From the IMG/VR virus record IMGVR_UViG_3300008108_000666, positions 1 through 20,182 of that record: a stretch of DNA of 20,182 nucleotides. The stretch is one strand, 5' to 3'. The translations under genes were made by a program, and so were the position numbers. This DNA comes from a virus. Shown here one piece after another: positions 82 through 19,878 of the stretch; the first letter of the stretch is position 1; each line of letters starts with the position of its first letter. Below the pieces are notes generated by a model that was not told where the DNA came from, did no database searches, and saw only the letters and a program-made list of their open reading frames with translations.

Positions 82-681
82 TTATTTGTTTTTAAATTGT
101 GAAACGAATTGTGAGTAAGATTTTATCTTGTCAGCTTTGCTTTCAACGCTGACTTTTTTAAAGTTGTTAGGAACTTCAGCCGGTGCTTGAGAAGGTACGT
201 TTACCAAAGTATCTACAAGCTGAATAAGTCCCTGCATTGCTTCGCTCTGTTTTGCAAATGCAGCTTTCATCGTGTTGTAATCAGATTGTAAAGCAGAAAA
301 ACTTTGTTCACTTGCTGCTATTCTGTTTTCAATTTCAGAAAACTTTGCGGCCATTTTCGCTTTCTCTTCTTCGTCTTTCTTTTCCATATCTTTTCCGCTT
401 TCGATCTCAACACTAACTTCTGGAGCTTCAACTTCTTTCGGCTTAATTTCTGCGATCACACCGCCTTCAGCAAGTACGATCTCCGTACCATCTGCCAAAG
501 TATGTTCACCGGCTGGCGCAGGTGAGCCGTCTTCGAGTGTAACGATACCGCCAACTTCTAAAGCTGAAACCATGATCTTAGTGCCATCTGCCAAAGTGTA
601 ACCTGGTGCCGGCATTGTTTCTTCCTGAAAAACAAGTTTTTTAACCTGTGATAAAAGTTCGATTGGGTTCATCATGCACAT
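82..681 (-). CDS. Scaffold-like capsid assembly protein with TLADGT repeats
   Basis: A 199-residue protein in two parts. Residues about 28-79 hold three related short beta-type repeats (TLADGT, TLEDGS, TLADGT) spaced by acidic and glycine-rich stretches. Residues about 97-161 are highly charged and helical, as in a coiled coil, and a basic tail follows. Short coiled-coil proteins placed between a head protease and the capsid gene are usually scaffolds that are cleaved or expelled during prohead assembly. The repeat domain is one I recall from Bacteroidota phage head genes, but its function is unknown to me. The start is uncertain: ATG codons at residues 1, 3 and 4 (MCMMNP) are all usable. The capsid-like gene follows after 2 bases, so the pair is probably co-transcribed. 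Confidence 0.6.
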   Translation of the reverse strand: MCMMNPIELLSQVKKLVFQEETMPAPGYTLADGTKIMVSALEVGGIVTLEDGSPAPAGEHTLADGTEIVLAEGGVIAEIKPKEVEAPEVSVEIESGKDMEKKDEEEKAKMAAKFSEIENRIAASEQSFSALQSDYNTMKAAFAKQSEAMQGLIQLVDTLVNVPSQAPAEVPNNFKKVSVESKADKIKSYSQFVSQFKNK

Positions 682-829
682 ATATACCGAAACCTAAAAA
701 AACTAGACATTTATCAATGAAAAGCGGCATTTTGTAAAAGCAAAAAGTATGTTTTTATGTACGTTTTTTTGTACTTACATTAACCGTACAAACTAAAAAA
801 ATTTTAAAATTGAATTGAGATGTGTGAAA

Positions 830-886
830 CACATACTATACTTTACTTTATTTCTTTTATTTACTTTACTTTATTTACTTTACTTT
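830..886 (-). other. AT-rich purine tract flanking iteron array A
   Basis: Read on the minus strand this stretch is almost only A and G with scattered T, built from short units such as AAAGTAAAGTAAATAAAG. It lies directly downstream of array A in the same relative position as the AT-rich tract beside array B in the initiator gene. No open frame of note crosses it. By analogy with lambda it could be a DNA unwinding element. The remaining non-coding bases (685-829) contain a weak inverted repeat around 758-780 and possible but poor promoter matches before the scaffold gene (TAGGTTTC on the minus strand, about 687-694), which I do not call. Confidence 0.5.
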
Positions 887-941
887 CCTTTGTTGAACGG
901 CTGTTGAACGACCGTTTAACGACCGTTGAACGACCGTTGAA
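887..941 (-). repeat. Iteron-like array A: five 11-bp direct repeats (inverted copy of the origin-like array)
   Basis: Read on the minus strand, five units follow each other without gaps: TTCAACGGTCG (931-941), TTCAACGGTCG (920-930), TTAAACGGTCG (909-919), TTCAACAGCCG (898-908) and TTCAACAAAGG (887-897). The same 11-bp period, unit number and last unit (TTCAACAAAG) recur at 19512-19566 on the plus strand inside the initiator gene, also followed by an AT-rich tract. Here the array is non-coding and starts three bases after the glycosyltransferase stop codon. The 11-bp period is about one helical turn, which is typical of initiator binding sites. A second origin, a titration or incompatibility site, or a relic of a recombination event are all possible. 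Confidence 0.85.
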
Positions 942-944
942 AAA

Positions 945-1949
945 TTAACTCAATAACTTTAAAAAAGCTGCTTTTCTTTTTTCGTTTATCTCATTGAAAT
1001 TGAAGTATTTAGCGCAGTATGTATGCAATAAAATTCCAAGTTCATCCCGCATATCTTTATCATTCACCAAATCGTTAATATATCGAGTCCAGTCGTCTCT
1101 TTTTTTGACATATTTTACGACATTTTCTGGAAAACCTAAGTACGGATCGACATGTGAAACAATGACAGGAATAGCCTTTCCGGCAGCTTCTAAAATTTTA
1201 ATATTTGACTTATATCCGTTAAAATTATTCTTCACCAAAGGCACTAACATAATGTCAGAATGTTTGAACATTTCGTAATAATTAAACACATCTATGCCAC
1301 GAATTAACGTGTGAGGTAAAGCCTGGTCCGCTGTGAAATAGTTAGCCATTTTATGCCAGTAATAACGCTCCGTATCATTCGAATCTGCAAAGCCACCCAT
1401 CACCATTTGAATGTTACCGGATAGCTTTTTTAAAGGCGCTTGTAATAACTTTAAATCCTGATCATGTGTAATCCCCCCCGCCCAAAACAATTTTACAGCA
1501 TCGGTTACAACTCTTTCCCCATTGAATTGAACTTGGCCGTAAGGAATTGCATTCGGTAATATTTCAACGTTTTTATTGTGATAATAAATAGCATCAGCCA
1601 ACCTCTCATGAGTACATGTAACCAGATCGGCTTCCCTCATGTGATATATTAATTTTGCTGCGAAATTTGAAGCGTTATAACTATCGTACATCAAATGATC
1701 GTGCGATAATATCCAATAGTCATCCACATCCACAACTAACTTAAAACCTTTCTGCTTTCGCCTTTCGATTAGATTTTCAGGTTCCCAAATTCGATTGATA
1801 AAAACAATATCGTAATTGTGTTCATCCCATTGCTCTTCCGTCATTGAATCGGTTATTCTGCCGTATTCTTTTTCCATTAAAGAGATCGGGAGCATTAATC
1901 TGTGATAGCCGCAGCCGCTAAATTTTTGTGTTAATGTTAGGATTTTCAT
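945..1949 (-). CDS. Glycosyltransferase, GT-B fold (GT4-like)
   Basis: A 334-residue protein with the two-lobed plan of GT-B glycosyltransferases. The N-terminus MKILTLTQKFSGCGYHR is a typical acceptor-domain opening; DVDDYW lies at 74-79, the inter-domain LPNAI at 131-135, and the donor-sugar side has FWAGGITHDQDL (155-166) and YKSNIKILEAAGKAIPVIVS (246-265), close to the usual nucleotide-sugar-binding helix. It lacks membrane segments and should be cytoplasmic. Substrate cannot be read from sequence; phage-borne enzymes of this kind decorate host surface polymers, capsid proteins or modified DNA bases. It lies between the head protease and the scaffold, which are normally neighbours, with a terminator-like hairpin before it and the iteron array after it, so it looks like an inserted cargo gene. 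Confidence 0.8.
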   Translation of the reverse strand: MKILTLTQKFSGCGYHRLMLPISLMEKEYGRITDSMTEEQWDEHNYDIVFINRIWEPENLIERRKQKGFKLVVDVDDYWILSHDHLMYDSYNASNFAAKLIYHMREADLVTCTHERLADAIYYHNKNVEILPNAIPYGQVQFNGERVVTDAVKLFWAGGITHDQDLKLLQAPLKKLSGNIQMVMGGFADSNDTERYYWHKMANYFTADQALPHTLIRGIDVFNYYEMFKHSDIMLVPLVKNNFNGYKSNIKILEAAGKAIPVIVSHVDPYLGFPENVVKYVKKRDDWTRYINDLVNDKDMRDELGILLHTYCAKYFNFNEINEKRKAAFLKLLS

Positions 1950-2024: not shown

Positions 2025-3056
2025 TTAAAAGTCTTTAAGCAAATCTCTTAGTTTTTCAATTATCTCTTCTTCTTTCATTCTCATTTTTACTTCTGTCATA
2101 TCGAACATACCTTCAACGCTGAATCCTTTGAACGTACCGTCTTTCACTTTTGCCCACGTTTCATCATTCATAACCTTTGCACCCAAAAACCACGTGCCAT
2201 CTGGTAGGTCTTCAAACTGCTTCATTTTCGGAATGCCTTTGCTTTCATCTGCTATCCAAGACATAAAGAAAGTAATACCTTCAACTGGCTTTGTATGCAT
2301 TTCGTTTGCGCTTTGCTGAAACCCTTTTGCGTAAAACTTCAAAGCGATTGTTTCAATAGTCTTTTTGTCAAAAAATACATAATATTCGCCTGTTTCATCT
2401 CTTCTGTAAATAGGCATGTCCGGGATCATTGCAGGGCCGACTACAATACGTTCTTCATTATTGACTACAGAAAAAGCATGCATCTTTTGACGATCTATCT
2501 GCTCAAGTTTACGCTGCGCCCACTCAATGCCAGCATCACCACCCCAAGCAAGCCACATAAGCCGTCCGCATCCGTCGCCTAATTCCTTTTGTGAGTTTTG
2601 CCTGTGCCTTTCAAAGGCTGCCATTTTTGCTATCGTGTCTCTCGATAGAGGTCGACCAGCTGCGAGATCGTTAGCTCTTTTTTTCCCGACAGGCGTTCCA
2701 CATTCACCCCATCCGTTTTCTTCAGCCCACCTCAAAGCAACCTTTGCGTTCTCGCTTGCTTCTTTTGGATAGTCGCTGTAGCTTTCCTGAAAGTTCTGAT
2801 CTTTGTTCTCCCATTTGCTATAACAGATCGCAGCCGCCTGTTCCTGATCTTTGCCTTCACCTACCATATACGAAATGCAGCGAGGTATAAACTCATCTTC
2901 CGATTCGCCTGCATTCGGCTCAACAAATATCTGTTTTTCAAATGCGAAAAACGTTTCATTAATGGCCGGCACGTCAACGAGTGCTATTGCGTTAACTTCC
3001 TGAATAGAGTTTTCGTCTTCTTTGATTGTCAATTTGAATAAAGGTAACTTTTCCAT
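2025..3056 (-). CDS. XkdF-like prohead protease with two extra N-terminal modules
   Basis: A 343-residue protein counted from the ATG at 3056, chosen because it begins one base after the tape-measure stop; the longer frame would need a TTG at 3083. Three modules are visible. Residues 47-82 form a Cys module (RCISYMVGEGKDQEQAA then ICYSKW) known to me from phage head proteins. Residues 96-185 hold a domain with YPKEAS, KKRANDLAAGRPLSRDT and WLAWGGDAG, also recurrent in phage proteases and portals. Residues 204-320 match the XkdF/S78-type phage serine protease, with candidate catalytic His254 (NEMHTKPVEG) and Ser313 (GFSVEG). Family role: cleaving scaffold and capsid proteins in prohead maturation. 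It is unusual that it follows the tail genes. Confidence 0.8.
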   Translation of the reverse strand: MEKLPLFKLTIKEDENSIQEVNAIALVDVPAINETFFAFEKQIFVEPNAGESEDEFIPRCISYMVGEGKDQEQAAAICYSKWENKDQNFQESYSDYPKEASENAKVALRWAEENGWGECGTPVGKKRANDLAAGRPLSRDTIAKMAAFERHRQNSQKELGDGCGRLMWLAWGGDAGIEWAQRKLEQIDRQKMHAFSVVNNEERIVVGPAMIPDMPIYRRDETGEYYVFFDKKTIETIALKFYAKGFQQSANEMHTKPVEGITFFMSWIADESKGIPKMKQFEDLPDGTWFLGAKVMNDETWAKVKDGTFKGFSVEGMFDMTEVKMRMKEEEIIEKLRDLLKDF

Positions 3057-3057
3057 A

Positions 3058-5250
3058 TTATCCGATCCTTGCATTACGCTCAAGGTACGCGTTTCTTTGA
3101 TTGTTATTTTGAATGTCTGAATTCATGACATAAGCTCTTAAAGACTGATTCCCTAGATCATTTATTGCTTGAGCATTTAGTGCCTGCCCCTGTACAGCAG
3201 GTGAAAGTCCAGGCTGCATTGGTGCGTTTAAATTGCCCGGAGGAGGAGGGGGAGTAGGACCAGTTCCACCTCCTCCACTGCCATTCATAAATTTACCTAT
3301 TGAAGTTGCTGATATTGTTGCAATAGAACCAGCCGCTCTAATTTTTGCAGCTATAGCTTGTTTTGTAGCTAATGCCATCCCTGAACCTGGCACTATTAAA
3401 TTCATAGGACTTGCCGCTCCAGCTGCATAATATGAAGCTATTTCTCTTTGCGTATCCATTATTATTTTAACTATTGCCAAAGCTTTATCTATTACAAAAA
3501 ATGCGTTAGCCAATTTTTTATTCTTACCTGCTAATGACTCTAATGCATTAAGTCCGGCACTTGTTGCGGCAAATGTTGCATTTTGTAATTCTATTTCCGC
3601 TTGTAATATTTGATTATTAAATTCTTGTTTTTTCTGTAAATCTTCTTGTTTAAACTTATCTTCTAATGCAACTTCTTCCTGTCTTTGTTTTTGACGTAAT
3701 GCAACGGTCAAAGCTAAGCGTTGCATGAAATTCAGATTTTCATTTGCAGCGATCTGACTCAACTGCTCCTGATGTGTTATTTGTAACTCCGCTTTTTCTT
3801 TTTCCCTTTGATCTTTAATACCGGCTAACCTTATTTCCTCATTTATTTTGTTTATTTCATTTGCAAACTCTTTTTCTTTTTCTTTTTGCTCTTTTCTATA
3901 TTGATCTTCAACTTCACTTCTTTGTCTTCTATATGACTCTTTTAAAATGTTTATCTCTTCTTCTGACCTTCCTGTTAATTTAATTAAATCTTCATTGTAT
4001 TTTTTGTCAATATCTAAAAGCTCCTGATCTCTTTTTGTCATTAAAGATTTGCGTCTTTCAGCTACAACCTGATCAGCCTCTTCTCTTCTTTTGTTTTCTT
4101 CATTTGCCGCTTGTTCGTTAGCTTCTGATCTATCTTTATTCCCTTTATTATTTGCACCGTTTAATTGATTCTGATAGCCTGCATATTGATTCTCTTGCTG
4201 AAGAAGAGTACTCTTCATTGTTTTTATTGATTCATCCGCTTCGGTTTTTACTTTTTCAGGATCAAAGAGCTGATTCGCAACCCAATCAGAAGCCGCTACA
4301 TTCATCTTTGTAATTTCCTCATTTATTGTAGTAGCAACAACTTTGCCAAATCCTAAAACATCACTAACTTGATTAACTGTTAAAATAATCAAATCAATAG
4401 GTGCGGCTAATGCTCTTAAAATAGCAGTATTGGCTTCAATAGCGCCACGAATAACCATTTTTGTTAATTCGTTATTTCTTTTTGCAGCTGCTATCTGAGA
4501 TACTTTTGTTATTTCAGCTTGTTCTATTCTTGCTTTACTTTCTGCAATAACTAATTTTAGCTGACTCATTTTAATTTGCAGTATCTCCTTTTCGCTTTTC
4601 CCTTGCAGCTTTAATATCTCATCTGATGAATTTAAAGCGTCCATCTTTTCTTGTTCCGCTTTTAAATTCTTTTCTGTTTGTTCATTTAATTTTTCCTGTT
4701 CTTTTGAAACACCATTTACAAGACCTTTAATATCATCCCAATAAGCAACCAAAGTACCGACTGCTACAACTAAGGCACCGATGCCAGAAGATATAAGAGC
4801 TTTTTTAAACCCACTCACACCTTGTGTAGCAGCATTGACAAAAATCTTTAACTGCTGCCAACTTTTACCTAAATCCTTTAATTGGCTTAACCCTTGCGCC
4901 AAAGCCATCGCACCCTGAACTTTCAATAATGCCTTTTGTACGTCCTCACTTTCAGCACCAACCAAAGCCATTGCACCTTGCACCGCACTAAAACCGGCTG
5001 CTATCTGCGAACCCAATGTAACAAATGCCTGAAACTTTTTCCCAGGATCAAATAAATCCGCCGTCTCCCTTGCATCATCAATTCTATCTTTTAAATCAGC
5101 TACTTTTCTTGCAGCATCAATAGCCTGCGTTGCCCCGAATTTATCCTGCATTGCAAGCAACTCCTGATTAGCTTCTTTCAAAGCCTTTCGCATATTACCT
5201 ACCGACTGAAAATCCACCTGTACCGTTGCCCCTATAACCGTATTAGCCAT
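3058..5250 (-). CDS. Tail tape-measure protein
   Basis: A 730-residue protein from the ATG at 5250 (MANTVIGATVQVDF); the upstream TTG at 5256 is less likely. It has the standard plan: a short N-terminal domain, helical segments, a hydrophobic stretch near residue 155-172 (SSGIGALVVAVGTLVAYW), a long Lys/Glu/Gln-rich coiled coil (about 380-560), a second hydrophobic and Ala-rich region, and a C-terminal Gly/Pro linker (GGGGTGPTPPPPPG). Tape-measure proteins fill the tail lumen and fix tail length; at about 0.15 nm per residue this would correspond to roughly 110 nm, but only as a family rule. Its start overlaps the preceding frame by 8 bases. It is rather short for the family, and no peptidase or lysozyme domain is seen. 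Confidence 0.88.
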   Translation of the reverse strand: MANTVIGATVQVDFQSVGNMRKALKEANQELLAMQDKFGATQAIDAARKVADLKDRIDDARETADLFDPGKKFQAFVTLGSQIAAGFSAVQGAMALVGAESEDVQKALLKVQGAMALAQGLSQLKDLGKSWQQLKIFVNAATQGVSGFKKALISSGIGALVVAVGTLVAYWDDIKGLVNGVSKEQEKLNEQTEKNLKAEQEKMDALNSSDEILKLQGKSEKEILQIKMSQLKLVIAESKARIEQAEITKVSQIAAAKRNNELTKMVIRGAIEANTAILRALAAPIDLIILTVNQVSDVLGFGKVVATTINEEITKMNVAASDWVANQLFDPEKVKTEADESIKTMKSTLLQQENQYAGYQNQLNGANNKGNKDRSEANEQAANEENKRREEADQVVAERRKSLMTKRDQELLDIDKKYNEDLIKLTGRSEEEINILKESYRRQRSEVEDQYRKEQKEKEKEFANEINKINEEIRLAGIKDQREKEKAELQITHQEQLSQIAANENLNFMQRLALTVALRQKQRQEEVALEDKFKQEDLQKKQEFNNQILQAEIELQNATFAATSAGLNALESLAGKNKKLANAFFVIDKALAIVKIIMDTQREIASYYAAGAASPMNLIVPGSGMALATKQAIAAKIRAAGSIATISATSIGKFMNGSGGGGTGPTPPPPPGNLNAPMQPGLSPAVQGQALNAQAINDLGNQSLRAYVMNSDIQNNNQRNAYLERNARIG

Positions 5251-9436: not shown

Positions 9437-9894
9437 GCATTATAAACAAAAGGAAACGGAGCATCGAGCAAATCAGTTGCATACTTTTCATGATCGGCCG
9501 CATTGTACTTTTTGTCAAAGTAAAGGAAACCGATTCGCCTTTGAGGAATAACACACGAAGCCATTAACCTGTGAAGGTTTTTAAACATGCCACCCCCGGT
9601 AAATGTCTTTGCCTCAATATACCTTGCAGCAGGTAGCTTTTCAATCTGCCAGTTTAAACGATAATACCTTCCGTTTACCTTTATTCGCTTTCTTGCTTCC
9701 TTTTTAAAGTCAAACTCAAAGAAGTGTTTATATTCGTTAACTTTCTCAAGTGGCCAGCTATCGACTTCATCTTCACTTTTGCCGGTAAGTACACAAATAA
9801 CCTTAACCAATTTATCGAGATCGGTAAAGGATTCGTTTTCAATAATAGGCAGCATATCCTGATATTGCCTAACTGTAATTTGATTCCAATTCAT
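9256..9894 (-). CDS. Tail-assembly chaperone, short form (G-type)
   Basis: A 212-residue protein from the ATG at 9894, overlapping the terminase stop as ATGA. Opening MNWNQITVRQYQDMLPI and the central block (KVNGRYYRLNWQIEKLPAA, then KTFTGGGMFKNLHRLMASCV) are features I recall from Bacteroidota phage proteins placed upstream of the tape measure. The helical composition and the overlapping -1 frame downstream fit a tail-assembly chaperone, which binds the tape measure during tail building. Function is inferred from layout and frameshift more than from a clear domain. The tape measure lies about 4 kb downstream rather than immediately next door, which is a departure from the usual order. Confidence 0.65.
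   Translation of the reverse strand: MNWNQITVRQYQDMLPIIENESFTDLDKLVKVICVLTGKSEDEVDSWPLEKVNEYKHFFEFDFKKEARKRIKVNGRYYRLNWQIEKLPAARYIEAKTFTGGGMFKNLHRLMASCVIPQRRIGFLYFDKKYNAADHEKYATDLLDAPFPFVYNACVFFCSVLMGSIKDILSYSEKELQQKMKSQDLKILNQSFQSITDGFIPRPLSQIMKESA
9423..9431 (-). promoter_or_regulatory. Predicted -1 ribosomal slippery site (T9)
   Basis: On the minus strand the zero-frame codons read GTT TTT TTT TGC, so T_TTT_TTT (9430-9424) is a perfect X_XXY_YYZ heptamer. A slip by -1 moves ribosomes into the frame that ends at 9146. A run this long may also cause polymerase slippage or a sequencing error. Confidence 0.65.
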
Positions 9895-11063
9895 AAAAAA
9901 GAATATTTAACTTGACCGCCGTTATCTTGCACGTACATCGACCATGCCAAGGCTAAGGCATTCACGCAGTCATCATGCAGGCCTACAGGTGCTGTATATT
10001 TTACCCCTGTTCCCGTCATCTGATATTCAAAAGATTCTAATTCTGCCCTGATCGTACCTTCAGGAAAGATCACACGCCTTTGATGAATGGCAGCCGCTAA
10101 CCCTTCCATAAGCTGCTGCTTGCTCGTTTGCGTATACTTGAAAGAATGTACATCAGATCGCACACGTTGAATATCCTCTGTGATAGGATCGCCTACGCCT
10201 GTAGAATCGATTTTAAGCGCACCTTTCGGCAAACGTGAGATTATCTCTTTCGTTTCATTCCAGGGCCTCTGAAAGCGCTCAAAATAGCTCACAACACCAA
10301 ACCGATCTAAACCAATGATAACAGTCCAATCGAAAGACTTGGCAAGGTCTATCCCAAAGCATACAGGAGGCTCGTGCGACATCTGACCTGTGCAGATACG
10401 TATGTATTCTAACCCGAAAGGATTAGCCACATTGTCATTGAATTCAGCAAGGTATTCCTGTTTGAAGGCAAGTTCTGGAAGGTCACGCCTTGCAGCCTCG
10501 ATCTCTGAAGGGTCTATATGCGGATTGCTAAGGGTAGGCATCTGCCAGCTCATCCAGTCCGGCTCACCTGTCTGCCCTCGCATCCACAATTTATAAAAAT
10601 CATTCTTACCTTTTGGAGTTGACATAAACCAAGCATCCCCTTTGAGATCGGTAAGAGTAGGTCTGATTGCCTCTGTCCATGACTGCCATAGGTTACGATT
10701 GAACGCGGCTTCATCCACAATAGCTAACTTGTATTTGCGTGAACGACCTGCAAGCGGATTCTCTAAAGACCAAAACTCAATAATGCCACCTGTGACAAGC
10801 TCTATAAACTGATTGTCATGCTTCTTCTTTATGATAGGATTAAGGGCAGCAAGTAGCTCTTTATACGTTCCCTCAAGTAGTTTGTATGTAGGAGCAAAGT
10901 AAGCAACAGGATGCTTTTTAATAACGTAATGAGAAAGCAGATAGCCAGCAAGTACCGACTTCCCCCACCTCCTACCGCAGTCTAAAACATTAAACCTTTT
11001 ACGCTCAGATAATACCGAGGTCTGAACCTGCGTTAGTATCGGAAGCGTTATGTCGATGTCCAT
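9891..11063 (-). CDS. terL: Terminase large subunit
   Basis: A 390-residue DNA-packaging motor. The ATPase part shows Walker A GRRWGKS (30-36), Walker B LAIVDEAA (113-120, D117/E118) and the coupling motif STPKG (148-152). The RNase H-like nuclease part has FGIDLAKSFDWT (D239), IDSTGVGD (D286) and GLHDDC (D364/D365), giving the expected acidic triad. All key residues are present, so the enzyme should be active; it pumps DNA into proheads and cuts concatemers. The start ATG at 11063 lies within the small-subunit gene (59-base overlap). Length is a little short for the family but both domains are complete. Packaging type (cos or pac) cannot be decided from this. Confidence 0.95.
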   Translation of the reverse strand: MDIDITLPILTQVQTSVLSERKRFNVLDCGRRWGKSVLAGYLLSHYVIKKHPVAYFAPTYKLLEGTYKELLAALNPIIKKKHDNQFIELVTGGIIEFWSLENPLAGRSRKYKLAIVDEAAFNRNLWQSWTEAIRPTLTDLKGDAWFMSTPKGKNDFYKLWMRGQTGEPDWMSWQMPTLSNPHIDPSEIEAARRDLPELAFKQEYLAEFNDNVANPFGLEYIRICTGQMSHEPPVCFGIDLAKSFDWTVIIGLDRFGVVSYFERFQRPWNETKEIISRLPKGALKIDSTGVGDPITEDIQRVRSDVHSFKYTQTSKQQLMEGLAAAIHQRRVIFPEGTIRAELESFEYQMTGTGVKYTAPVGLHDDCVNALALAWSMYVQDNGGQVKYSFL

Positions 11064-11405: not shown

Positions 11406-12092
11406 TTATTTCCCTGTTTTATTGAGCGACAGGGTGGAATCGAACCCCTCCTTCAAGCTGGAAGCCTGATGTGCTACCGGTAACACTTCTGTCGCATTTG
11501 TTTCTTTTCTTGGATATGATATACTTAACGATTTGCAGAAAGGTATAAAACTTTTGTCAATGGGGTAAATATATTTCCATTTAGGTTTTGTTTTTAATAC
11601 TTTAACATTTAAACCTTTTTTTCTTAATTCAATAGCTGAAGATGTTCCATATCTGCTACATAAAGTTCTTCTGTGTTCTCTTTTACCATTAACTATTAAG
11701 TTTGTATCTGTTGAAAATCCTGTGTATATCCAATTTGTAGCTTGGTATATCGTTCCAAAATGACCTTGTTCACTATCTGCATAACTTACTACCAATTTAC
11801 ATAATGGCAGGTTTTTCTTAATTAGCTTTAATGCTATTGAAAGTGCTTTACTTGTTAATTCATGCTTACCATTTAAAGCTATTCTAACTAATTCCACTAC
11901 TTGACCTTGTTTAAGTCCATAAGGTTCAGCAAGATTATTTGTTGCACCACTTCCGAACAAAATAACACCACACCATTCATTTTTATCATTAAATACTGAA
12001 AAGCCAGTGACATTTACAGGTACTGCTTTTGCATAATGAAAATTCATGCAAGCATATTTTATAGCTTTATATGATGCTTTTTCTAATCTCAT
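11406..12092 (-). CDS. Mom-like adenine modification protein
   Basis: A 228-residue protein that resembles phage Mu Mom, which converts adenine in DNA to N6-carbamoylmethyladenine and so blocks host restriction enzymes. Visible family features are QVVELVRIALNG (64-75) and the strongly conserved block VSYADSEQGHFGTIYQATNW with IYTG after it (102-125). A basic region follows (KREHRRTLC). The ATG at 12092 overlaps the ParB-like stop as ATGA. Residues 200-223 are encoded by the bases of the tRNA-Gly gene, so the natural C-terminus may have ended near residue 198 or been altered by tRNA acquisition. The gene looks more AT-rich than the terminase genes next to it, which suggests later acquisition. 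Confidence 0.75.
   Translation of the reverse strand: MRLEKASYKAIKYACMNFHYAKAVPVNVTGFSVFNDKNEWCGVILFGSGATNNLAEPYGLKQGQVVELVRIALNGKHELTSKALSIALKLIKKNLPLCKLVVSYADSEQGHFGTIYQATNWIYTGFSTDTNLIVNGKREHRRTLCSRYGTSSAIELRKKGLNVKVLKTKPKWKYIYPIDKSFIPFCKSLSISYPRKETNATEVLPVAHQASSLKEGFDSTLSLNKTGK
11425..11495 (-). tRNA. tRNA-Gly(UCC), overlapping the 3' end of the Mom-like gene
   Basis: Folding by eye on the minus strand gives a complete cloverleaf of 71 bases. The acceptor stem is GCGACAG/CTGTCGC (7 perfect pairs), the D arm GTGT/GCAC with GG in the loop, the anticodon arm TCAGG/CTTGA with loop CTTCCAG (anticodon TCC at 11462-11460), and the T loop TTCGATT is canonical. The T stem is weak (AGGGG against CCACC, only three pairs), the variable loop is three bases and no CCA is encoded. 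It may be functional or slightly decayed. It would supply glycine for GGA codons and must be cut from the operon transcript. Confidence 0.75.
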
Positions 12093-15281: not shown

Positions 15282-15824
15282 ATGAAGCAACTACTTCAAA
15301 TTCAGGCCGAATTAAAAGCGCCAAAAAATCAATTCAACTCATTCGGTAAGTACAAGTATCGATCCTGTGAGGATATTCTAGAAGCTGCAAAACCTGTACT
15401 TCAAAAACATGGCTGCACCTTAACATTATCAGATTACATTCAAACAGCCGGCTCTTTAATATATGTCGAGGCCGTTGCAACTATTACAAACGGAACAGAT
15501 ACCATACAAGTAAAGGCGCAGGCTGGCATTGATACAAACCGCAAAGGGATGGATATAGCGCAGTCATTCGGTAGCTCAAGCTCATACGCTCGAAAGTATG
15601 CGCTCTCAGGTCTTTTCCTTTTGGATGATACTAAAGATGCAGACGCTACAAATACACACGGAAAAGAAATACCTACAAGGGCAGATAAAGACGCCTTGAT
15701 CAAACAAACTGAAAAGCTACCTGAGGAAAGAAGAGCAAAGGCTATTGTTGCTATTAACAAAGCAGAAACTCATGACGAATTTATTAAACTTAAAACCGCA
15801 TTAGATGGCATCAAAATTAACTGA
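15282..15824 (+). CDS. erf: ERF-family single-strand annealing protein
   Basis: A 180-residue recombinase of the ERF superfamily. The core runs from about residue 12 to 121, with NSFGKYKYRSCEDILEAAKP (19-38) and the signature GSSSSYARKYALSGLFLLDD (97-116) with TKDAD after it. The C-terminal part is a polar linker and a helical region. ERF proteins anneal complementary single strands during phage recombination and genome circularisation, working with an exonuclease and SSB; the small gene ending at 17203 could be the SSB-like partner. No matching exonuclease is visible nearby, though the VRR-NUC protein is a nuclease. Confidence 0.9.
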   Translation: MKQLLQIQAELKAPKNQFNSFGKYKYRSCEDILEAAKPVLQKHGCTLTLSDYIQTAGSLIYVEAVATITNGTDTIQVKAQAGIDTNRKGMDIAQSFGSSSSYARKYALSGLFLLDDTKDADATNTHGKEIPTRADKDALIKQTEKLPEERRAKAIVAINKAETHDEFIKLKTALDGIKIN

Positions 15825-17205: not shown

Positions 17206-17643
17206 ATGACACCAGAAGAAGCACTAAAAGAGATTAAAGATTATTTCAACCTGGAGCTTTTACCTTATTCAAGACAACGTTTATTTTCAATACTTGAAAT
17301 GCTCGATAAAACAAAAACAATTACCAAAATAAAAAAGGTATATGTTTATAGTGATAATGAAGTTCAGCATCAAGAAAATAGATTAGATCTTGTTGAAGAA
17401 GCGCAAAGGATAGCTCACATGTACGATACATCTTTGCATGAAATGAAAGGACGCAGGCGGTTTGTAAATATTGTTTCAGCACGTGCGCATTTCTGCAGAT
17501 ATGCAAAGTTAAATTCGGATATCAGTTTGAGTGAATTAGGTAGGTTTCTAAGGCGGGACCATACAAGCATAATGCACCTTATTTATAATTCAAAACAAAG
17601 ATGTATAATACCACCTTTGCCACGTAAAATCAGAAAGAAATGA
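17206..17643 (+). CDS. Stand-alone DnaA domain IV-like DNA-binding protein
   Basis: A 145-residue protein from the ATG at 17206. Residues about 83-126 match the DNA-binding domain IV of the bacterial initiator DnaA: RRRFVNIVSARAHFCRY (83-99), then ISLSELGRFLRRDHTSIMHL (106-125), with RDHTSIMH (117-124) in place of the DnaA signature RDHTTVxH. The ATPase domain of DnaA is absent. The N-terminal 60 residues are charged and not recognised. Such proteins bind DnaA-box-like sites and may recruit or compete with host DnaA. The gene lies in the replication block, about 2 kb before the initiator with its iterons. Confidence 0.8.
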   Translation: MTPEEALKEIKDYFNLELLPYSRQRLFSILEMLDKTKTITKIKKVYVYSDNEVQHQENRLDLVEEAQRIAHMYDTSLHEMKGRRRFVNIVSARAHFCRYAKLNSDISLSELGRFLRRDHTSIMHLIYNSKQRCIIPPLPRKIRKK

Positions 17644-17738
17644 TCTATCTTATAATTCTTTTAATATTGATCGGATTCGGACTTTTATTTATAAGCGGCT
17701 TTAATGCTTTAAATCATAATCATGAAGAAGATAACTGA
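17640..17738 (+). CDS. 32-residue single-pass membrane micro-protein
   Basis: An ATG at 17640 overlaps the DnaA-like gene's stop as ATGA and opens a 32-residue frame. Residues 2-19 are continuously hydrophobic (IYLIILLILIGFGLLFIS), followed by a polar end rich in Asn, His and Glu. It overlaps the start of the nuclease gene by 17 bases. The tight coupling on both sides argues that it is translated. Confidence 0.55.
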   Translation: MIYLIILLILIGFGLLFISGFNALNHNHEEDN

Positions 17739-18108
17739 AAAAGACGTACATACAGCCGTTTGCAAATACCTAGATGCTCAATACCCAGATGTGATCTATT
17801 TATCAGATCCGTCCGGTATGAGGGTCACAATAGGCCTGCAAATGGAACTGAAGCGTAAAAGATGCAAAAGGTATAAGATTCCTGATCTGATTATTCTGCA
17901 TCCTAATAAAATTTATAAAGGACTTGTAATCGAAATAAAGACTGATCTGTCAAAGGTTGTAACTAAGTCTGGAGACTTGCGTAAAGATCCACACCTACAG
18001 GATCAGCTTATAACCTTAGAACGATTGCAGGTATTAGGATATGCAGGTGTATTCGGTTGCGGATTCGATCACATCAAAAGCCTTTTAGATGAATATTTTA
18101 AACCATAA
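17722..18108 (+). CDS. VRR-NUC domain nuclease
   Basis: A 128-residue protein that fits the VRR-NUC fold of PD-(D/E)XK nucleases throughout. The helical start TEKDVHTAVCKYLDAQYPDV is followed by KIPDLIILHP (PD at 54-55), then LVIEIKTDLS (EIK at 71-73) and DPHLQDQLITLERLQVLGYA (89-108), the conserved C-terminal helix. All catalytic positions (D55, E71, K73) are present. Family members cut branched or flapped DNA such as Holliday junctions, and this one may resolve replication or recombination intermediates made with the ERF protein. Confidence 0.85.
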   Translation: MKKITEKDVHTAVCKYLDAQYPDVIYLSDPSGMRVTIGLQMELKRKRCKRYKIPDLIILHPNKIYKGLVIEIKTDLSKVVTKSGDLRKDPHLQDQLITLERLQVLGYAGVFGCGFDHIKSLLDEYFKP

Positions 18109-19155: not shown

Positions 19156-19878
19156 ATGAATAAAGACGCATTTTACTTTCCGCATTTCAGCAATGCAAGG
19201 AACGACCGCAAAATATTAAGACTGCGAAGGGAACTAGGTACTGAAGGATATGGCATTTATTTTATGATTCTTGAGATACTTAGGGACTCAACAGATTACA
19301 AATATCCATTGCAAGATATTGATCTGCTTGCAGATGAATTTAAAGTAAGTGAACCTAAAGTTAAAACAGTTATTTGTAACTATAATCTATTTGAAGTTGA
19401 TCAAAATGAAATGTTTTTTAGCGCTAAATTTAACGAATACCTTGCCCCTTATATCAGGATGAAAGAGCAAAGGAGATTAGCCGGAATAGCAAGCGCTTCA
19501 AAAAGATTAAACTCAACAACCGCTCAACAACCGCTGAACGACCGTTCAACGACCGTTCAACAAAGTAAAGGAAAGGAAATAAAAGAAAGTAAAGTAAATA
19601 AAGTAAATAAAGGAAATATATTTACACCACCACAGATAGAAGAAGTTAAATTATTCTTTGAAGAAAACGGATATGTAAACGGTGAGAAGGCATGGAATTA
19701 TTACAACGATGCAGACTGGAAGGATAGCACCGGAAAGCCTGTAAAGAATTGGAAACAGAAAATGCGAGGCGTATGGTTTAAAGATGAAAACCGAAAGCCA
19801 GCACCAAAAGAAAGAATATTAACCTTATCAGAATTAATCGAACAAAAAAAAGCAGAAGGCGATGAAAACTATTTTTAA
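19156..19878 (+). CDS. Replication initiator, Lin1244/Lin1753 (DUF4373) and DnaD-like domains
   Basis: A 240-residue protein from the ATG at 19156 (MNKDAFYFPHFSNARNDRKI); a longer frame would need a TTG at 19135 in the leader hairpin. Residues 1-100 are the winged-helix Lin1244/Lin1753 type domain, with KILRLRRELGTEGYGIYFMI as its core. Residues 117-155 are a low-complexity linker encoded by the 11-bp repeats and the purine tract. Residues about 156-207 (FTPPQIEEVKLFFEENGYV, then WNYYNDADWKDSTGKPVKNW) resemble the C-terminal DnaD-like region. Such proteins initiate phage replication and load helicase. As in lambda O, the origin probably lies within the gene. Its stop overlaps the next gene by 17 bases. 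Confidence 0.8.
   Translation: MNKDAFYFPHFSNARNDRKILRLRRELGTEGYGIYFMILEILRDSTDYKYPLQDIDLLADEFKVSEPKVKTVICNYNLFEVDQNEMFFSAKFNEYLAPYIRMKEQRRLAGIASASKRLNSTTAQQPLNDRSTTVQQSKGKEIKESKVNKVNKGNIFTPPQIEEVKLFFEENGYVNGEKAWNYYNDADWKDSTGKPVKNWKQKMRGVWFKDENRKPAPKERILTLSELIEQKKAEGDENYF
19512..19566 (+). repeat. Iteron-like array B within the initiator gene: five 11-bp repeats
   Basis: Units are CTCAACAACCG (19512-19522), CTCAACAACCG (19523-19533), CTGAACGACCG (19534-19544), TTCAACGACCG (19545-19555) and TTCAACAAAGT (19556-19566). Eleven is not a multiple of three, so the repeat runs through all codon phases and encodes an unstructured Ser/Thr/Gln-rich linker; selection on the DNA is more likely than on the protein. 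The core AACGACCGTT is nearly palindromic. It is probably the initiator binding region of the replication origin. Confidence 0.85.
19567..19620 (+). other. AT-rich purine tract beside iterons B, probable origin unwinding region
   Basis: The tract directly follows the iterons and consists of A/G-rich units such as AAAGTAAAGTAAATAAAG on the plus strand, encoding a Lys/Ser/Val linker. Iterons followed by an asymmetric AT-rich tract inside the initiator gene is the layout of the lambda origin. Array A has the same neighbour at 830-886. Confidence 0.65.

Follow-up and report, generated by a model that had tools for sequence, protein, structure and literature searches.

A non-coding iteron array in the late region of a viral contig as a candidate second site of the phage's own replication initiator

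The two arrays and their surroundings

The window, which is the whole stretch of DNA analysed here, is a viral contig of 20,182 bp, with late genes directed leftwards from about 14.4 kb and early genes rightwards from about 15 kb. The leftward late block encodes the terminase (9891-11063), tail proteins, a protease and a glycosyltransferase (GT; 945..1949, minus strand; phrog_7162, E=3.8e-61), and with respect to its own direction of transcription the GT gene immediately precedes array A. The gene downstream of this locus (locus A) encodes 199 aa (82..681, minus strand) and shows a weak match to phrog_24921, a profile that also matches the protease-like protein at 2025-3083 of the window. It is associated with a promoter-like element (CATTGATAAATGTCTAGTTTTTTTAGGTTTCGGTATATATG; 679..719, minus strand), and locus A is situated just upstream of that element. 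Furthermore, a tRNA-Gly (TCC) gene was predicted at 11424-11495 (minus strand), within the 3' end of a Mom-like DNA modification ORF (11406-12092).

On the early side, an ERF single-strand annealing recombinase (15282..15824, plus strand; PF04404, E=4.2e-38) is of the protein kind used in recombination-dependent concatemer replication; a recombination function for this type of replication is present in the phage with this gene (15282-15824). A small protein of the early operon (17206-17643) carries the DnaA C-terminal helix-turn-helix domain (PF08299, E=2.8e-8) and is a possible binder of DnaA-box-like sites. The protein at 17722-18108, adjoining the replication genes, shows a weak VRR-NUC-like match with E=0.028, which is below the cut-off, and is a candidate junction nuclease. 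Neither origin nor terminus was located by the GC skew of the window, because the skew tracks gene orientation and is uninformative in this respect. The sample consists of metagenomic contigs, mostly fragments, in which no end repeats were found. No prophage was found in sequenced bacteria with the 199-aa gene and the initiator as queries, and we infer a Bacteroidota host solely from the similarity of the initiator C-domain to Flavobacterium phage replication proteins.

Array A is located in the non-coding gap between the GT gene, which ends at 945 (minus strand), and the next gene, which starts at 681 (minus strand). It consists of five GTTNAAC units at 11-bp spacing (GTTNAAC plus 4 bp; 892..942, plus strand) with cores at 892, 903, 914, 925 and 936, and reads GTTGAAC GGCT GTTGAAC GACC GTTTAAC GACC GTTGAAC GACC GTTGAAA. 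Its motif score of 29/30 compares with a maximum of 21 when the whole window was simulated 300 times under a first-order Markov model, and its period-11 score of 37/44 with values of at most 28 in 200 simulations. The only ORFs of at least 20 aa across the array are two short ones on the plus strand (30 and 42 aa), which are not kept in relatives, because arrays of other sequence occupy the spot there. The tract of locus A is purine- and AT-rich on the minus strand (AAAGGAAAGTAAAGTAAATAAAG...; 834..891) and pyrimidine on the plus strand, and is a candidate DNA-unwinding or R-loop-prone element. Past the tract lies a small hairpin (ATGTGT-TTC-ACACAT; 820..834, minus strand); relatives show a T-A to C-G pair swap in it (ATGCGT..ACGCAT), and it was not found in contigs L013, L022, L332 and L333.

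The primary array of direct repeats with its AT-rich region, array B, sits within the replication initiator gene (19156..19878, plus strand), whose product comprises a Lin1244_N N-domain, a disordered linker and a C-domain common to relatives. The protein matches PF14297 (Lin1244_N) with E=8.6e-14 and 52.5 bits, the curated cut-off being 25, and phrog_2562 'replication initiation protein' with E=1.7e-20. Array B is made up of five GYTSAAC-like units at 11-bp spacing (19511..19561, plus strand), which code for part of the linker, and has a purine- and AT-rich tract (19562..19616, plus strand). AlphaFold2 modelling (mean pLDDT 66) gave a confident N-domain at about residues 20-90 and disorder at residues 124-155, a stretch encoded by most of array B together with the tract. 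No PDB sequence match was obtained, and the PDB fold search gave nothing at E<=0.001; its top ranks, none of them significant, were mostly MarR-type regulators and other winged-helix folds.

The modules of array A and array B (19513-19612) match in inverted orientation over 100 nt with 76% identity (BLAST E=1.3e-18), and the two tracts over 50 nt with 86%. Iteron counts are equal, and the distance between the arrays is 18.6 kb. Together with the simulations, the inverted match (100 nt, 76%) confirms what the sequence-only reading had described, namely five 11-bp units plus tract, non-coding and about 18.6 kb from array B. The spacer divergence that it had noted (GGTCG vs GACCG) is largely an effect of orientation: on the plus strand the units are nearly alike, with GTTGAACGACC in A and GTTCAACGACC in B. 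The iterons of A and B run in the same direction on the plus strand, with the tract on the opposite side and strand. Unit, spacing and number are common to both arrays; it is the tract that is reversed relative to the iterons in A, most clearly in the homologous arrays of relatives. There, the reversal is clear in the GCCCCC type (scores of 22-27 vs 5-12) and the GCAAATG type (20 vs 11); it is slight in the GTTSAAC type (26 vs 23), and the CATATG type is not reversed.

Locus A and iteron arrays in related contigs

Relatives of the GT gene were found in 72 viral loci. The clade with GT at least 90% identical comprises 17 contigs, which are the window, L009-L022, L332 and L333 (the last two via the promoter-like pattern). 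In all 17 an array is found between GT and the next gene, starting near the GT stop codon, and the gene order at the locus is constant. A contig chimera is ruled out, since 16 further contigs have an array in this position. The GT clades at about 72% and about 60% identity lack an array at the locus. Two contigs of the 72% clade (G044, G049) contain an initiator gene with a repeat linker and no convincing second copy on the contig. Furthermore, no second array was found in the complete Flavobacterium phages morran9-1 and tooticki9-1, and none that is convincing in 70-odd loci with the conserved C-domain, within the stretches examined.

The arrays at locus A can be classified into five subtypes, and for each of them a related initiator gene has a counterpart in its linker, the tract subtype included. 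These are TTCAACGGTCG, GGGAGGCTATTA with a CAAAG tract, GGGAGGCCAATA with a GGCAATAAAG tract, GCATTTG, and CATATG with a GAAAATG tract. The GGCAATAAAG tract at locus A of L022 and L332 matches the linker of L237, and the GCATTTG array matches L240, a relative (L240:873-2976) in which a DnaB replicative helicase gene directly follows the initiator gene. Two array types stand in tandem in 7 of the 17 contigs (L010-L012, L013, L022, L332 and L333). Because of these tandem loci, locus A might be regarded as a collecting point for origin modules, which holds arrays of the own initiator and those of co-circulating relatives' initiators. We consider this quite doubtful; if true, a phage in a mixed infection could exploit the initiator of a competitor or deplete it, as a weapon or an insurance at the level of replication.

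The position of array A between GT and a conserved promoter-like element would fit a regulatory role, in which initiator bound at A would repress or block the late transcription that runs from GT into the next gene, or set the timing of the downstream promoter-like element. In the same gap, most members of the clade at about 60% identity show an intrinsic-terminator-like stem with a T run. However, the spacing between the last iteron and the promoter element ranges from 76 to 189 bp, stretches resembling this element also precede the gene in GT clades without an array, and it is not obvious why regulation should need a purine tract whose subtype is that of the initiator. Such a role is rather improbable. 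Alternatively, the array could act as RNA, as an attenuator or structured leader in the late transcript. Array A of the window (z=-3.3) and the CATATG array (z=-6.5) do fold better than shuffles, but the GGGAGGC array of G011 does not (z=-0.6), palindromic DNA sites yield such folds for free, and no Rfam match was obtained at the array; we regard an RNA element as extremely improbable.

An exact 4-unit GYTNAAC array was found in at least 120 viral stretches. Among the matches listed, 115 of 120 arrays are inside an ORF, and these ORFs include 102 of DUF1376 type and 4 of Lin1244 type. Five of those listed lie outside ORFs, and two of these, L123 and L154, represent locus A of the present phage group. 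The DUF1376-type genes (contigs L081-L200) represent a further family with an initiator-like N-domain and encode a similar RSTTVQ-like linker, and the two N-domain families have one iteron alphabet in common. Judged by these sequences, the 11-bp GYTNAAC array marks predicted initiator genes of phages; having a second, non-coding copy is apparently specific to this lineage. Each of 50 other larger contigs with GYTNAAC arrays has a single array place among the matches listed. As these contigs and the GT clades mentioned above are without a second array, the latter is dispensable for replication generally.

Co-variation with the initiator and conservation of the cores

Three genomes are readable at both loci, and in each of them locus A includes the type of the own initiator. 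The shared types are GTTSAACGACC, AATAGCCCCCC and AAACATATG. The window has GTTSAACGACC at A and GTTCAACGACC at B. G011 (35.4 kb) carries ATAGCCCCCCTA in the initiator gene (21453-21490) and AGCCTCCCTATT after GT (548-595), and G003 (31.4 kb) carries AAACATATG in the initiator gene (4521-4567) and CATATG after GT (23224-23277). The two CATATG modules of G003 are 85% identical over 105 bp (E=2e-26), including a different tract, GAAAAT. When arrays at A were compared with arrays at B in a matrix, cognate pairs scored 20-34, with the 99th percentile of the null at 7-13 and non-cognate pairs at or near the null; an exception is given by the related GCCCCC subtypes of L237 and G011, which also score above it. 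Given the frequencies of types at locus A, the chance of three matches in these three genomes is estimated at about 0.04.

Locus A has thus changed in relatives to match a different initiator and is therefore probably a working site. The search for paired arrays, with locus A changing type along with the initiator in 3/3 readable genomes, supports an initiator-related site, and array A is probably a cognate binding site of the phage's own initiator. If the arrays are cognate throughout the clade, the initiators of L010-L012 are predicted to be of AATAGCCCCCC type, those of L022 and L332 of GATGCAAATG type and that of L333 of AAACATATG type. A recent simple duplication, which had been considered unlikely, remains so for the window, but the switching of types means that new modules have repeatedly been placed at the locus. 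An inversion hotspot, which had also been suggested, is not supported, as all three readable genomes agree in the A-to-B orientation and the gene order at A is constant in the 17 contigs.

The initiator itself is modular: in G003 and G011 the C-domain is near-identical and the N-domain is swapped together with the iterons. In G003 the N-terminal region is different and the C-domain nearly identical (94%). The initiator of G002/L203 shows a related N-domain and the same iterons joined to an unrelated C-domain. G003 has a tandem locus, in which an additional TTGAACGACC array (23310-23360) adjoins GT; this array nearer to GT is non-cognate and seems to be left over from a previous initiator allele.

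Type matching fits equally well with titration or copy control, in which array A soaks up initiator or handcuffs with array B, in the manner of P1 incA and similar iteron control loci, and so limits firing of the main origin, without itself initiating or blocking replication. The same applies to the conservation of the cores described below, and the iteron number of A equals that of B. Such iteron copy control is familiar from plasmid maintenance, but no plasmid-maintenance gene was identified among the genes searched. Moreover, a pure decoy needs no AT-rich tract, whereas here the tract is retained and takes on another subtype when the iterons change (GAAAAT in G003, GGCAATAAAG in L022 and L332). 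We therefore consider titration unlikely.

Across the six distinct GTTNAAC arrays at locus A, the cores vary at 2 of 30 sites, and centre plus spacer at 7 of 21 (Fisher p=0.019). In the adjacent GT gene, 177 of 334 third codon positions vary (53%); at this rate, the probability of at most two variable sites in 30 is about 9e-8. Recent shared ancestry of the arrays through recombination could contribute to the conservation of the cores. These data also bear on the idea that ERF-mediated exchange between the purine tracts merely drops functionless copies of the initiator linker at A. The tracts are homologous, the phage encodes ERF, and tandem arrays occur in 7/17 contigs, with one of them non-cognate in G003. 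On the other hand, cores stay intact while spacers drift, the exact spot is kept in 17/17 contigs, and the three contigs searched over their full length contain no comparable iteron copy elsewhere. Apart from array and tract, the locus showed no initiator coding sequence, and simple copying would not give iterons reversed relative to the tract, as in the GCCCCC and GCAAATG types. Such a mere record of recombination is decidedly improbable. An initiator pseudogene at A was likewise considered and rejected: tblastn matches in G006 and G007 cover only array and tract and contain internal stops.

Comparison with known replication systems

Bacillus phage SPP1 shares this anatomy, and for that reason a second origin or a site of replication switching is the best fit among the functions listed in the sequence-only reading. 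In SPP1, oriL lies inside gene 38 and oriR in an intergenic late region; both consist of direct repeats and an AT-rich element and are bound by gp38 (PMC6316719). At oriR, gp38 has been proposed to stall the theta fork and to trigger recombination-dependent concatemer synthesis (PMC3485210; see also PMC5615212), and this fork stalling with a theta-to-sigma switch at the second site is a model even for SPP1 (PMC3485210). The phage studied here resembles SPP1, whose initiator G38P is a replisome organizer, in that the main origin is placed in the initiator gene and a second site in the non-coding late region, in that both sites combine direct repeats with an AT-rich element, and in that an annealing recombinase is encoded. 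The sites are about 13 kb apart on the 44-kb SPP1 genome, and 18.6-20.9 kb apart in the three readable genomes, measured along the route that these contigs cover.

There are also differences. The initiator is of Lin1244_N/DUF4373 type, and the likeness to the G38P system described here is one of anatomy. Binding at both sites has been demonstrated for SPP1, whereas here it is predicted from the co-variation of sequences. Unlike in SPP1, close relatives differ in iteron type, and do so at both loci together; the iterons at the second site are often reversed relative to the AT tract, and arrays of different types occur in tandem. A similar switching of the N-terminal DNA-binding domain together with the origin repeats, the C-terminal domain being constant, is found in the RepA_N/ori modules of V. 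cholerae PLE (PMC8263062). In PLE this covariation concerns one origin, whereas in the present phages a second, distant array follows too. As in lambda O/ori-lambda and other phage origins placed in initiator genes, the iterons of array B are inside the initiator gene; to our knowledge, lambda has no second, distant, non-coding iteron array. Iteron arrays that lie away from the origin and are cognate to the initiator are known from the plasmid control loci P1 incA and F incC. These loci are close to the rep gene and lack the AT-rich element of the origin, whereas array A is 18.6 kb off, in the late region, and has an AT tract.

As its anatomy matches SPP1 and the phage has ERF, we read array A as an oriR-like second initiator site. 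The primary origin would be array B with its AT tract, and the initiator N-domain would bind both arrays, as their co-variation suggests. By analogy with SPP1 oriR, array A, when occupied, may serve as a late origin and/or as a barrier that stalls theta forks. Stalled forks would then promote a switch to recombination-dependent concatemer synthesis, served by the ERF annealing protein. When N-domain and iterons of the initiator are swapped for another allele, a matching module would join locus A, where the previous one may survive as a relic. If array A is a cognate binding site, a replication role of the oriR kind appears reasonably probable; the complete reading, a cognate second initiator site that works like SPP1 oriR as secondary origin or fork barrier, is the one to which we lean slightly.

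What a second, non-coding initiator site does for a phage is understood best in SPP1, and even there the fork barrier and the switch are still a proposal. What is new here is a different phage lineage with SPP1 anatomy, combined with a natural experiment in which the distant array differs with the initiator allele over several iteron alphabets. The question is therefore directly testable with matched and mismatched pairs of initiator and array. Our results also suggest a way to find second sites: the repeat coded in the initiator linker of a genome can serve as the query against that same genome.
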